Shown here: positions 58,397 to 64,000 of the stretch, in pieces | Numbering within the stretch: the first letter of the stretch is position 1 | Layout of the letters: each line of letters opens with the position of its first letter | Assembly (NCBI GenBank): GCA_016188575.1 | Contig: JACPHN010000068.1 | Coordinates: 62,001-126,000, forward strand | Direction of reading: 5' to 3' | Origin: Candidatus Schekmanbacteria bacterium | GTDB taxonomy: Bacteria; CSSED10-310; JACPHN01 | Length of the DNA: 64,000 nucleotides | Notes under the pieces: model-generated | What the model was told of the DNA's origin: nothing | Seen by the model: only the letters and a program-made list of their open reading frames with translations | The model's database searches: none | Program-made: the position numbers and the translations under genes

Positions 58397-59215
58397 TTAT
58401 TCTGCCTTGAGCCCGCGCAGTCGCTCGCGCATGCTCGCAAGCTCTGCCTCTGCCGCCTCGGCGCGCCGCCGTTCAGCATGGGCGCGCTCCCGTTCAGCGT
58501 CGGCGCGCTCCCGTTCAGCATCGGCGCGCTCCCGTTCAGCGTCGGCGCGCTCCCGTTCAGCGTCGGCGCGCCGCCGTTCCGCCTCTTCCGCAAGCGGCAC
58601 CAGCACCCCATCCGCCGAAAAGAATCGCAGCCACGTACGGTGCTCTCTATGGAAGGTCCCCTGCCATTCTCCCAGTCTGAGCTCCATTACCTGGCTGCTC
58701 AGGCGACCGGCGTGATCGGGCTCGAGCGGCCGGTAATTCCCGTACTGTAGGCGCCACCCGCGCAGCTCCGAGCGGTCCAAGTCGTAACAAAAATACTCTG
58801 TTGTGCGAAAGGTGCGCTCGTAGAGCGTCTTCTTCGCCCCGAGGTCCTCGTTCCTGGTGCTTTCGCTCAGCAGCTCGATGATGATGTCGGGATAGCGCCC
58901 CCCTTCTTCCCAGACTACCCACGCCTTCCGGCTGCGCGTGCCGTCGACACCGAGCACAGCAAAAAAATCGGGACCGCGATAATCGCGATTCCGCGCCTGC
59001 TCGACGCTGAAGTAGAGGAACATGTTGCCGCCCGTGTAGTAGTCGGTACGGCCGCGCCAGTGTTCATGCGTACTGTCGATGAGCATTTCCATCTGGGCGC
59101 GGTGCGCAGGGCTGTCCATCGGGATTCCGTCCTCGTAGATCAGATCGACCTGCGGCGCGAGGACAGTTTCGATCGACTGTTCGACCGTTGGCTCGGCGAT
59201 GGCTGCCTCTGTCAT
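58397..59215 (-). CDS. Uma2-family (DUF820) putative nuclease with heptad-repeat tail
   Basis: 272 residues from ATG 59215, preceded by GGAGGTCACACG. Uma2/DUF820 core: MDSPAHRAQMEMLIDSTHEH, GNMFLYFSVEQARNRDYRGP-DFFAVLGV (Asp strand), YPDIIIELLSESTRNEDLG-KK (E-x-L and the following Lys), and FCYDLDRSELRGWRL. The C-terminus holds four ADAERER heptads encoded by 21-bp tandem repeats (about 58480-58570), a predicted coiled coil that may mediate dimerisation. The product's substrate is unknown. It differs in sequence from the Uma2 protein at 12273 but has the same design. Confidence 0.85.
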   Translation of the reverse strand: MTEAAIAEPTVEQSIETVLAPQVDLIYEDGIPMDSPAHRAQMEMLIDSTHEHWRGRTDYYTGGNMFLYFSVEQARNRDYRGPDFFAVLGVDGTRSRKAWVVWEEGGRYPDIIIELLSESTRNEDLGAKKTLYERTFRTTEYFCYDLDRSELRGWRLQYGNYRPLEPDHAGRLSSQVMELRLGEWQGTFHREHRTWLRFFSADGVLVPLAEEAERRRADAERERADAERERADAERERADAERERAHAERRRAEAAEAELASMRERLRGLKAE

Positions 59216-59563
59216 CGTGTGACCTCCAGGTGGCAAGGGAACAAACGGCGACAGCTCTCATTGTAAAGTGTGCGGCGCCGGCATTCAACGGCGGTACCCG
59301 TGCGTTGACAGCACAAACGGTCTTACCGCATTCTCGGCTCGCGAATCCGGTAAGCCCGGGTTCGGCGGCCCCAGACAGGACTTGTTGGTCGCCTCGCTTG
59401 ACGGCGTGCTGGTGCCAGGGACGCCGAGGCCGACGAGGCCGGCGAAGAGCCGCCGTGGCGATGGACTTGGGTTGTGGCCGCGGCGTGACAAGTTTCCGCT
59501 GCCGTGCTACCATGGCCCGTACCGACTACAGTGAGGCCCGCTCGTCCAAGGAGAGTGTTAGGG
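59216..59563 (+). promoter_or_regulatory. Intergenic stretch with candidate sigma70 promoter
   Basis: 348 bp between two divergent genes. GTGACA (59485-59490) and TACCAT (59508-59513), 17 bp apart, are a fair -35/-10 pair for the small gene at 59564. No gene or repeat was found in the rest. Confidence 0.45.
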
Positions 59564-59770
59564 ATGTCCAAGGCTCTGGGTTCGTCTTTGACAGCCAATG
59601 AGGAAGAAGTTCTTGCCTACATCGAAGCGGAGACCGACGGTACGACGATTGAGCAGATCATTCGGGATCTTGAAATCGTCGGCAGACTTCTCCCGGACAT
59701 CATGCAATCCTTGCTTGAGAAAGGCCTCTTGCGCATGAGGGATAACCGCTACTTCGCCGCAAAGGGCTAA
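59564..59770 (+). CDS. Small winged-helix-like protein
   Basis: 68 residues from ATG 59564, preceded by AAGGAGAGTGTTAGGG. SSLTANEEEVLAYIEAETDG, TIEQIIRDLEIVGRLLPDIM, QSLLEKGLLRMRDNRYFAAK has the helix-helix-helix-beta-hairpin pattern of a winged helix (compare sequences in MarR- or RFX-like DNA-binding domains), here without a second domain. No family name can be given. It faces the 930-residue gene tail-to-tail with 18 bp between stops, so the two share a termination region but not a promoter. Confidence 0.65.
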   Translation: MSKALGSSLTANEEEVLAYIEAETDGTTIEQIIRDLEIVGRLLPDIMQSLLEKGLLRMRDNRYFAAKG

Positions 59771-59788: not shown

Positions 59789-62581
59789 TCAGCGGATGCG
59801 AAGCTCGGAGAATTCCGCGCGGTACCGATAGTAGGCAAAGGCGCTGGTTTCGGCGCGATCCTCACCTCTACCGATAGCATCGAGCACCGCGGCACGCGCG
59901 CGGAGCCGCTCGGCCTCCTGAGATGACAGCTCGGCGGATTCAAAGAGCCGGGTGAACCATTCTCTCTCCTCTCCAGTCAGCGCCCGGCGTCGCGCATGCT
60001 CGAGCTCGGCTTCGAGATCGGCGGCCGTCTCGGCAGTGACCAGCCGAGCCCCGGCCGAAGCCGCGACCCCGGCATCCAACTCACGCAAGTCGGTCGCGGG
60101 CAGCATGTGATCGGCAAGCAGCACGAGGAAGACACCCGCTTGCCGCGCCGCCGCCAGCAGTCGCACCCACGCCACGGTTTCGCCTCCCGTGACGCTGGCG
60201 AAAAGCGCCTTCAGCATCCGCACCGAGTCCACCACGAGCACCACCGGCTGAGCCGACGCGGGTTCAGAGCTGCTCGGCACCTCCAGTTGCTCCGCCGCCG
60301 CGGCGCGCTCGGCGTGCATGGTGTCGATCAGCAGTTGCAGCGCGCCTTCACCGCCGGTGACGCCAGCCATGGGCAACACCTGGATGCGAGCCGAAAACGC
60401 CTTGTAGGTATCGAACGCCCGTTCCAGCTTCTGGCGGATCCGCTCGATATCCGGCACGGTCCCGCCTTGCGAGGAGAACCAGGCGCGGCTTTGCAAGGTG
60501 CGCCGGCTCCACGAGCACAGCCGGGCGACGCTCGCCATGCACAGCTCGCTGGTATCCATGACGAAGTTGGCAAAGACGCAGCGGGCCAGGTGGCGCGCTG
60601 CCCAGTGGTCGACGTGCTGAATCGCGAAGTCGAAGACGCCCGTGTCGCAGCGGCCGCGCAGGATAAAGGTGTCCCCCGGTCGAGCACCACCCATGAAGAT
60701 CTTGTTGAGCCCGTGGCTCAGGAACGTGAGTTGAGGCAGCGGTCGCAGCAACTCGGCCATGATCTCGTCCGAGGAAGAGTCCATACGCACCGGCACGACC
60801 GCACGCACCAACGGCGCCGCTTCCTTGAGAAGGTCGCGGAATAGCGAGGCCGCGCGGTCTTCGGGCGCCTCGGCCACCAGTTTGGCGTAGCGTCCCAGGA
60901 GCCCACCCAGCGCGCTTTCTCCGGCTGGCGCCACCGCCGCCGCCGCCAGCGGCCGCACGCGAATGAGGTGCGGGTGGTCGATGGTCGGGTGCGGGCTCGG
61001 TTTGTCCGGAACCTCCTTGACCACGATCTCGTCTTGCAACTGGCGAACCGCGTCGCGCAGGGTCGCATCCTCTTCGGCGCGCAAGCGGCGCATTTCACCG
61101 GGCGAGGGAGCAACCGCGGCTCGCAGCAGGCTCGGATCGCCGGCGCTGGCATCCCCCTGATGCGAGGACCGCATCACTTCAACCTCCGCCGCCTGAATAG
61201 AACGGGGAGGCGCTTCTCGCGCTTCGGCAAACGCGAGCGCTTCCGGGACCGGGGCCGGCTGCTCGGGCTCGGCGTGGTAGTGGTGCTGATCGGACACGAT
61301 GAGGTCGAGTGCGGGTTCGGCCGCGTAGCCGGCAAAGTCGTTCGCCTCCAGTCCACGGGCCTCGTGGCCCGGCGCGCCCGCCGACAGGCTTTCCTTTGGA
61401 TAAACCTCGTCAAGGCTGAGCAGCTTGCGTTCCTCGATCTGCCTGCCGTCGCGCACCATCAGTGCCGACCAGCGGAAAAAGGCCGCTGCCAGGGGTTGCG
61501 GGGTAACGACTTCGGGCCGGGTTATCGACGGCCGCACGTGCGTTCCGGCGCGCAAGAGCTGGATGGGTGGCTCCGAAAGCAGCTCTTCGATGTGCAGCGG
61601 CACCTTGTGCAACTGGGTCGAAGTGCTGCGCGAGCCCTCGGCTCGCCATTTCTGGCTGTTGCTGTAGCGATCGGCGAGGACTTGCTTGATCTTCTGGGTC
61701 ACTACCCCGCGACCCTCGCGCCGGTAGATGCCCGCGATGTAGTCGGTCATGCGTTCATAGATGCGGTGGAGGTCGCTGGCCGGCCGCACGCCAAAGACGC
61801 GGTAGTCGATCTGCAGATCGATTCCCGAACCGTTCATGTAGGGGTAGACGACGTTTCGGCTCAGGCCGAACTTCTTCCACAGCGTTTCCACGTAGGTGGC
61901 GGCGTCTCGCTGCGCGGCCTTCATTCCTTCGCCAAGCGCCGTCAGCGTGCGACTGGAGTCCCCACCTCGCTCCGGGTTCTCGAACACCGCGAAAAGATCT
62001 CCGAGCAGCATGGCGGACTGGTCGGCAAGCCCCCGCTGCAGGCGTTGCAGATCGCCATCGCGATAGCGAAAGACGCTGGTAAGCACGTCCGAGGCCTGCG
62101 CGGCGATTGCGGACATCGAGACTGAAGCCATGGGGGTAAGGACGGTCCGCGTCTGTCGCGTGCTCGGATCGGCGAACTCGAGCTGAATATAGGAAAACTC
62201 CTCGTCGGCCACCGCGGGCGGTTCGGGGACGGGAAGCGAAAGATCGATGCGCTTCTGAGGTGCCCAGGTTTCGACGACTTCCTCCAGGGAAAAGCCCGTC
62301 GACAGGCAGAAGATCTCGAGCAAGTTGACGGCGCCGACCTTGCGAAAGTAGATCTCGCAATCCGGCTCCTGGCAGTACCCGTAGTTGAACGTCGTATTGA
62401 TGGTGAGAGACTTGCCCGTTTCTCGGGTGTGAATCGGGCAGACCGCGGTAATCTCATCGCCGTTGATGTCGACGTCGTCCAGACAAAGCGAGCGAAAGAT
62501 CTCATCCGCCGTAACGGAGAGATTCAGGACGTCGATGCTGGCGTCCGGCCAGCGCGTGTTGAATCGCGAGTTGTCCTGCAT
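59789..62581 (-). CDS. DnaG-type zinc finger plus DnaB-like RecA-fold protein, unknown function
   Basis: 930 residues. The N-terminus has a primase-like zinc finger: Cys48-x2-His51-x18-Cys70-x4-Cys75 in AVCPIHTRETGKSL...YGYCQEPDCE, followed by AVNLLEIFCLSTGFSLEEVV as in DnaG finger proteins. Residues 180-530 are helical with no TOPRIM motif seen. The C-terminal third resembles the DnaB/KaiC RecA fold: FLSHGLNKIFMGGARPGDTF, then ILRGRCDTGVFDFAIQHVDH at the position of the P-loop (about 619-660), with no GK[ST], and Walker B-like VVLVVDSVRML near 780. It may therefore not hydrolyse ATP. Neighbours: a SpoIIE phosphatase starts 266 bp upstream. Both fold calls are pattern-based. Confidence 0.7.
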   Translation of the reverse strand: MQDNSRFNTRWPDASIDVLNLSVTADEIFRSLCLDDVDINGDEITAVCPIHTRETGKSLTINTTFNYGYCQEPDCEIYFRKVGAVNLLEIFCLSTGFSLEEVVETWAPQKRIDLSLPVPEPPAVADEEFSYIQLEFADPSTRQTRTVLTPMASVSMSAIAAQASDVLTSVFRYRDGDLQRLQRGLADQSAMLLGDLFAVFENPERGGDSSRTLTALGEGMKAAQRDAATYVETLWKKFGLSRNVVYPYMNGSGIDLQIDYRVFGVRPASDLHRIYERMTDYIAGIYRREGRGVVTQKIKQVLADRYSNSQKWRAEGSRSTSTQLHKVPLHIEELLSEPPIQLLRAGTHVRPSITRPEVVTPQPLAAAFFRWSALMVRDGRQIEERKLLSLDEVYPKESLSAGAPGHEARGLEANDFAGYAAEPALDLIVSDQHHYHAEPEQPAPVPEALAFAEAREAPPRSIQAAEVEVMRSSHQGDASAGDPSLLRAAVAPSPGEMRRLRAEEDATLRDAVRQLQDEIVVKEVPDKPSPHPTIDHPHLIRVRPLAAAAVAPAGESALGGLLGRYAKLVAEAPEDRAASLFRDLLKEAAPLVRAVVPVRMDSSSDEIMAELLRPLPQLTFLSHGLNKIFMGGARPGDTFILRGRCDTGVFDFAIQHVDHWAARHLARCVFANFVMDTSELCMASVARLCSWSRRTLQSRAWFSSQGGTVPDIERIRQKLERAFDTYKAFSARIQVLPMAGVTGGEGALQLLIDTMHAERAAAAEQLEVPSSSEPASAQPVVLVVDSVRMLKALFASVTGGETVAWVRLLAAARQAGVFLVLLADHMLPATDLRELDAGVAASAGARLVTAETAADLEAELEHARRRALTGEEREWFTRLFESAELSSQEAERLRARAAVLDAIGRGEDRAETSAFAYYRYRAEFSELRIR

Positions 62582-62847: not shown

Positions 62848-64000
62848 TCATAAGGCCCGCAGCACGACGATGGTCTGATCGTCGTGCGGGGGAATGCCCG
62901 CGAGAAACGCCTCGACGTCGGCAATCAAGGCCGCGACGACTTCGTCCGCGGGCAGCCGCGCGCAGTTGCGGACCGTCTCCTGCAGGCGCTCGAGACCAAA
63001 CATCTCCCGCGTGCTGTTCATCGCCTCGACGAGACCGTCGGTCGTGAAGACCAACAGATCGTTCTTGTTCAAGGCGACGGATTGAACTCCGTACTGATAT
63101 CCGTTTTGCCGTAGATCCATAACCCCTAGAGGTAGCCCCTGGACATCGACGAAATCGCAATAGGAGCCGTCGCTCCGGCACAGAACCGGCTGCATCTGTC
63201 CTGCGTTTGCCAGCAGTACCTCATTGCTGTCGTCATTGACGCACGCATACCCCAGCGCCACGAACGAGCGATTGCCTTGCATCTTGTCATACAGGGCGAC
63301 GTTGGATTCGAGCAAGACCTGAGCGGGGTTGTTCTTGCCGATCGCGATCGAGGAGATGACACTCGAAGCGACCGCCATGAGCATCGCGCCGGGAACGCTC
63401 TTGCCGGACACGTCACCGATGGCGATGCCGAGATGACCGTTGTGGTCGGAAATGTACGAGTAGAAGTCACCGCCGACCTCGTGGGCCGGGCGGCAGAGAG
63501 CGCGGATCTCGAATCGCTCGAGATTCGGGTCCTGCCTGGGCAAGAGTGACATCTGGATCCGGCGTCCGATGCGCAGCTCCTCCTGGATGCGCGCCTGCTC
63601 GCGCAGTTGCTCCTGCGCGCGGCGCAGCTCCTTGAAGGCGCGGCGCAGCCGGCGGTTGCGTTCCTGAAGGTCGCGGATGAACCCGGCATCGGCCTCGCGA
63701 ATGCGGTTGGAGAGCGCCCGCAGCATGCCGAGGTTGATGTCGGGAAAGCGGACCAGCAGCTCCTTGAAGTTCACCCGGCTGAGCACCATCGTTTCAGTAT
63801 CTTCGAGCGCGATGACGTTCGCCGATCGGGGGCGGTCTTCAAGCAGGGCCATCTCGCCGTAAAACGTGCCCGGTTTGCCGACTGATGCGATCTGCTCGGT
63901 GCCGTCGACGGTGTTCTTTGACACCTTGACGCTGCCGCTTTTGACGACGAATAGCTCGTCACCCACCTGACCCTCGCGAATGATGAATTCGCCAGCGGCG
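62848..64000 (-). CDS. Cyclic-nucleotide-binding-domain SpoIIE phosphatase (5' end outside window)
   Basis: The frame is open to the window edge on the minus strand, so the N-terminus is missing. The visible part starts inside a cNMP-binding (Crp-type) domain (GEFIIREGQVGDELFVVKSG; PGTFYGEMALLEDRPRSANV), then a coiled coil (ERNRRLRRAFKELRRAQEQL), then a SpoIIE/PP2C phosphatase with EVGGDFYSYI, GDVSGKSVPGAMLMAV and the final HDDQTIVVLRAL. It probably dephosphorylates an anti-anti-sigma factor in response to a bound cyclic nucleotide (inference). Whether the cNMP site binds a ligand depends on residues mostly visible here: the phosphate-cassette FYGEMALLEDRPRSA has the Arg expected for ligand binding. 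Confidence 0.92.
   Translation of the reverse strand, partial: AAGEFIIREGQVGDELFVVKSGSVKVSKNTVDGTEQIASVGKPGTFYGEMALLEDRPRSANVIALEDTETMVLSRVNFKELLVRFPDINLGMLRALSNRIREADAGFIRDLQERNRRLRRAFKELRRAQEQLREQARIQEELRIGRRIQMSLLPRQDPNLERFEIRALCRPAHEVGGDFYSYISDHNGHLGIAIGDVSGKSVPGAMLMAVASSVISSIAIGKNNPAQVLLESNVALYDKMQGNRSFVALGYACVNDDSNEVLLANAGQMQPVLCRSDGSYCDFVDVQGLPLGVMDLRQNGYQYGVQSVALNKNDLLVFTTDGLVEAMNSTREMFGLERLQETVRNCARLPADEVVAALIADVEAFLAGIPPHDDQTIVVLRAL

Follow-up and report, generated by a model that had tools for sequence, protein, structure and literature searches.

The zinc finger, primase and DnaB-type helicase of T7 gp4 and Twinkle follow one another in that order, the primase being of the TOPRIM type; metazoan Twinkle has lost the primase function and remains active as a helicase. 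The parts of P0001, a protein encoded within the 64,000-nucleotide stretch of a Candidatus Schekmanbacteria contig analysed here (the window), stand in the same order, but its primase part is assigned to the AEP superfamily rather than to TOPRIM and, in contrast to Twinkle, the residues of its motor have been lost as well. Closer counterparts are found in phages and plasmids. Genes for an AEP primase and a DnaB-C helicase are adjacent in Moorella phage MTATph1 and in Paenibacillus and Bacillus plasmids, a single Hymenobacter plasmid protein unites PriCT_1 and DnaB_C with the AEP motifs, and Thermus phage P23-45 has a primase related to that AEP group. The phage and plasmid pairs possess an AEP domain homologous to that of P0001 (99% by HHalign) and a DnaB-type motor in the same order, but they consist of two genes and possess the DxD and GxH motifs and a P-loop with lysine, whereas P0001 is a single chromosomal chain with a zinc ribbon in which these residues are lost. 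Such an adjacent gene pair is a plausible ancestral arrangement for P0001. Mobile-element AEP families, PrimQH for example, contain AEP fused with P-loop domains, among them RecA-type RepA and DnaB helicases, and are described as mobile-element replication proteins (PMC5862659); among the families described in the available part of that paper there is no catalytically dead chromosomal family like that of P0001. Narrow queries of open-access papers likewise found no such family.

The gene of P0001 occupies positions 59789..62581 of the window on the minus strand and reads from an ATG at 62581 to a stop ending at 59789, with no interruption over 930 codons. The GC contents of its three codon positions (0.69/0.47/0.79; GC3 0.79) resemble those of adjacent housekeeping genes, so that the 930-residue open reading frame of the original prediction is borne out as an intact, host-like gene. 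P0001 alone gives no matches in Pfam, NCBIfam or PADLOC, which agrees with the earlier suggestion of an undescribed family, and no meaningful match among PDB sequences; the novelty of the family is provisional. The identities of its domains were derived mainly through relatives and profiles, as searches with the single sequence were uninformative. Three domains can be recognised, a zinc ribbon, an AEP domain and a DnaB-type RecA domain, the last two with their catalytic residues missing. E-values quoted for HHalign are those of single comparisons, and the negative controls (reversed AEP, phage DnaB and DnaG TOPRIM) gave 0.1-0.4%; the similarities found for the three domains thus exceed what would arise by chance. 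A first AF2 model, of the relative L036 with 5 sequences, was poor, while that of P0001 with 23 sequences was usable; its overall pTM is 0.43, and the placement of the domains relative to one another is therefore not predicted. The AEP and RecA domains are separated by a linker, largely disordered but for a few helical stretches (aa 346-620, 60722..61546, minus strand), pLDDT being below 50 for most of residues 343-620. The "long helical region" first proposed for the middle of the protein is thus a misdescription: residues 125-345 form an AEP-like alpha/beta fold, and this linker comes after them.

The zinc ribbon module is of the DnaG/CHC2 type (aa 10-112, 62246..62554, minus strand), as indicated by Pfam matches of family members, HHalign and pLDDT. 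Its finger, CX2HX18CX4C, possesses all four ligands (C48, H51, C70 and C75) and is modelled with pLDDT mostly 79-94. The family finger aligns with 13 DnaG fingers at 98.1% (HHalign, E 1e-13), and 3 of 11 family members match Pfam Zn_ribbon_DnaG, the best at 1e-7; the primase-type finger noticed originally is thereby confirmed both in its residues and by profile-profile comparison. Two members, L045 and L049, are exceptions, one having no finger and the other lacking its ligands. The N-terminal zinc ribbon of bacterial DnaG is homologous to that of P0001 (HHalign 98%), but P0001 possesses no TOPRIM domain and a separate, normal DnaG is present in all 14 host genomes tested. A related zinc-ribbon module also heads TPR proteins and one GGDEF-like protein elsewhere in bacteria (L004, L057, L059-L063). 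Some of the TPR proteins have open frames of about 1800-2600 amino acids, and no description of this recurring architecture was found.

The middle domain (aa 125-345, 61547..62209, minus strand) is, on the evidence of profile and motif comparison, a degenerate AEP primase that has lost its catalytic residues. The middle domain of the family aligns with phage and plasmid AEP primases, a set made up of relatives of the intact AEP primase L064, at 99.0% (HHalign, E 3e-18) when P0001 is excluded and at 99.3% (E 1.9e-20) when it is included. The AEP segment of P0001 alone matches phrog_18685 at 7e-5; among 11 family segments, 10 match this PHROG and 7 match phrog_16345, annotated as "primase". L064 itself matches phrog_18685 at 7e-26 and phrog_16345 at about 1e-25, and has PriCT_1 together with a DNA_primase_S match below threshold. 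A profile of finger plus middle domain also matched DnaG fingers, L064 (E 5.5e-7), L066, and L068, a protein with a degenerate AEP plus RecA. In L066 an AEP-like primase domain shares one protein with a DNA polymerase of family B. The AEP assignment is based on HHalign and PHROGs together with a viral match of the AE_Prim_S_like type, the PDB Foldseek lists shown being filled by DnaB/RecA matches; pLDDT in the region is mostly 80-95. HHalign detected no similarity of the family middle domain to an AEP set dominated by LigD-type PrimPols, while it did for the phage and plasmid set, so the link is to the phage/plasmid AEP branch. When 386 genomes were scanned with the middle domain alone, just two AEP-type primases and two marginal matches were added to the known groups.

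In motif I, GDFYLDFD reads GDLFAVFE in P0001, the DxD being replaced by V199-F-E201 (61979..61987); in motif II the GxH position is G253-I-D255 (61817..61825), and in motif III the Asp position is L302 (61676..61678), all on the minus strand. The Arg of motif IV is kept as R313. DxD and GxH are missing in P0001 and in all members of a second phylum, represented by ten genomes, that is described below. TOPRIM was considered as an identity for the middle domain and is ruled out by the HHalign control against the DnaG TOPRIM region (0.1%); no TOPRIM domain was found in P0001, as the original prediction had also observed. A T7 gp4- or Twinkle-like ancestor with finger, TOPRIM and helicase, which that prediction had in view, is not supported, as AEP is unrelated to TOPRIM. 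TOPRIM is missing from P0001 because its primase part comes from this different superfamily.

The C-terminal domain (aa 621-930, 59792..60721, minus strand) is a DnaB-type RecA domain whose catalytic residues are lost, identified by Foldseek and HHalign. Foldseek comparison of the P0001 model with PDB retrieved the ATPase domains of DnaB and G40P (TM by target 0.62-0.67, for isolated domains), and much of the RecA core has pLDDT of 80-93; the fold is thus RecA/DnaB-like, where another fold would have spoken against the earlier proposal. RecA domains of the family align with phage and plasmid DnaB at 98.1% (HHalign, E 7e-14), above the 90% that had been looked for, and the C-terminal part of the relative L003 matches Pfam DnaB_C at 1.5e-15. 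At the P-loop position P0001 reads G643-RCDT-G648-V649-F650 (60632..60655), with Lys replaced by Val and Ser/Thr by Phe, which upholds the claim of a DnaB-like domain without P-loop lysine (GRCDTGVF). The position of the catalytic Glu (SLEM in DnaB) is V674 (60560..60562), while the Walker B Asp is kept as D785 (60227..60229), all on the minus strand. A DnaB N-terminal domain is absent from P0001, the single PF00772 match of the genome being located on contig C259 and P0001 on C177. The original view of a finger, a primase-like part and a DnaB-like helicase joined in one chain with lost active centres is therefore supported.

A search of 60 genomes yielded three remote relatives, each covering different parts: L003 of genome G023, L002 of G041 (Pfam DnaB_C 3.8e-7) and L004 of G045, which has a zinc finger and TPR repeats. 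The full-length relatives L007 and L008 were obtained with L003 as query, and a scan of genome contigs gave four loci, two of them in Planctomycetales bacterium MAGs. Relatives with the same domain order, about 750 amino acids long, occur in all ten genomes examined from the phylum of G023. Apparent second copies there are accounted for by a weak match to a DnaG region (G388) and by one gene in two frames (G389). In the phylum of the window itself the gene was found in the window's own genome only, and scans of viral contigs with the family and with L064 gave no relatives. In all ten members of the G023 phylum the Walker A Lys has given way to Thr or Val, and Gln takes the place of the catalytic Glu. 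Loss of the GK, whose conservation the original prediction had looked for, thus holds in the relatives of the same architecture, and since it is universal there, P0001 is not merely a mutated copy. Homologues with an intact P-loop had been named as evidence to the contrary; two other groups do retain the lysine, but no member of the same-architecture family does. P0001 shows the domain order, the loss of AEP and RecA residues and the chromosomal location by which this Zn-AEP-pseudoDnaB family is defined.

The first of these two groups, f39, is a stand-alone RecA/DnaB-like protein of 356-385 amino acids present in 4 of 4 genomes of its family (L167-L169, L173), with a near-canonical P-loop, GPPDGTKS, that keeps the lysine. 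The f39 gene is followed by one for a sugar-nucleotide epimerase, and a GAF-GGDEF gene is near in each of the three loci that extend far enough. The second, S68 (L089-L108), combines a dead AEP with RecA and has no zinc finger; its GK is intact, as is the Glu in many members. Of the 24 genomes of family f123, 21 carry it, one of them as a fragment. Frequent neighbours of the S68 gene are an acylphosphatase-like gene and a conserved one whose product looks secreted. P0001 groups first with f39 (98/96) in the RecA tree and next with the ten-genome family (95/83), apart from chromosomal and from phage and plasmid DnaBs; its branch is very long (2.72) and its exact place unsure. The RecA domains of the family group apart from the sampled phage and plasmid DnaBs, which are therefore putative representatives of the ancestral type. 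Within the ten-genome phylum the RecA tree agrees with family taxonomy and inheritance looks vertical. Two of three close pairs in this phylum have dN/dS of 0.04-0.12; in the third the finger gives 0.22 and the rest is saturated, with pN/pS of about 0.19-0.20. These ratios indicate that the gene is under purifying selection in that phylum.

Genomes that encode a P0001-type protein also possess the ordinary replication genes. Normal DnaG is present in all 14 host genomes tested, the window's own included, and DnaB was detected in 13 of them, so the P0001-type protein is best seen as accessory. The upstream neighbour of P0001 encodes a cNMP-binding SpoIIE phosphatase (62848..63999, minus strand; Pfam SpoIIE 2e-41, cNMP_binding 1.5e-23), and further upstream on the same strand of the contig lie RlmN-like, GAF-GGDEF and, further on, Ser/Thr kinase genes, the RlmN-like and kinase labels being putative and assigned from sequence. 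Past the end of the window, L174 (G000:C177:121000-140000) shows the same-strand GAF-GGDEF gene and the Ser/Thr-kinase-like ORF, which has an extra C-terminal region. A small convergent ORF (59564..59770, plus strand) possibly encodes a winged-helix protein, its Pfam HTH_27 match being weak and below the cut-off (E 0.065). The ORF at 58397-59236 appears Uma2-like by eye, and successive charged repeats of the ERADAERERADAE type make up its C-terminal part. No replication-gene neighbours are present in the window. Among relatives no replication gene recurs as a neighbour, and there is no conserved operon apart from ArgS, which adjoins in several members of the ten-genome phylum.

The reading we consider most likely, at about even odds, is that P0001 is a domesticated, non-catalytic primase-helicase with a predicted role as a nucleic-acid-binding scaffold or regulator. 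Both active sites are lost, yet every genome of the ten-genome phylum keeps the protein, which is why it is probably a scaffold or regulator and not an enzyme. It would have originated as a replication module of the mobile-element type: a zinc ribbon may have been fused with an AEP primase and a DnaB-type motor, both active sites lost, and the product retained as a chromosomal gene, the order of these steps being our inference. The zinc ribbon, together with the palm of the dead AEP domain, could have kept the ability to hold nucleic acid, either single-stranded or primer-template, and oligomerisation of the dead RecA domain, alone or with partners of the DnaB/RecA type, could likewise persist. 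P0001 would then work beside the ordinary DnaG and DnaB of the cell as a scaffold, sensor or regulator without catalytic activity, most plausibly in replication, restart or repair. Several findings count against this explanation: replication genes are missing from the neighbourhood in the window and do not recur beside the relatives; the upstream genes on the contig are largely signalling genes, which fit a role away from DNA equally well; the finger or its ligands are lost in two members; and the RecA domains of the family do not group with the sampled phage and plasmid DnaBs. The signalling genes speak for the second-ranked reading, a rather doubtful one, in which P0001, having given up its work on DNA, serves in the cytoplasm as a signalling or adaptor protein whose ribbon and dead folds are protein-protein surfaces for the neighbouring phosphatase, GGDEF protein and kinase. 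The proximity of the closest RecA relatives, f39, to a GAF-GGDEF gene and the zinc-ribbon-headed TPR and GGDEF-like proteins point the same way; however, a signalling neighbourhood is not a conserved feature in the ten-genome phylum, and all three domains derive from nucleic-acid enzymes.

Homology to the primase and helicase of AEP-DnaB phages and plasmids would also suit a host interference protein, a dominant-negative decoy poisoning the primosome of such elements. This is improbable, as the gene is present in all ten genomes without mobile context and is apparently vertical, unlike patchy defence genes, and P0001 has no significant match among the anti-phage defence families of PADLOC. Still less probable is an enzyme with an unconventional site, using nucleotides without the Walker A lysine or performing residual AEP nucleotidyl transfer. 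The retained Walker B Asp and R313, and the P-loop lysine and glutamate kept by S68 relatives, are set against the absence from P0001 of the residues of the AEP catalytic motifs, as well as of the Lys and the catalytic Glu, and against the loss of DxD, GxH, Lys and Glu in all same-architecture relatives. That P0001 is the decaying remnant of an integrated element is very unlikely: no other member was found in its phylum and it sits on a very long RecA branch, but the frame is intact with host-like codon-position GC, the neighbours are housekeeping genes, the domains are well modelled and the zinc ligands are intact.

Within the preferred reading of a domesticated scaffold or regulator, a more specific and more tentative proposal may be made, that of a "ghost primosome": an AEP primase-helicase of the phage/plasmid type may have become a structural or regulatory partner of the cell's own DnaG and DnaB, retained as lineage-core in every genome of one phylum or more, while the S68 lineage would have fixed a related protein of dead AEP and RecA. 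A fused primase-helicase without both activities, kept across a phylum, is undescribed in the family libraries and papers searched. The finding also corrects a natural misreading, as the missing TOPRIM reflects the AEP superfamily of the primase part. The family supplies testable proteins with which the function of a non-catalytic primase-helicase scaffold can be studied; should they bind DNA and associate with DnaB or DnaG, they would represent a new class of bacterial replication regulator of mobile-element origin.
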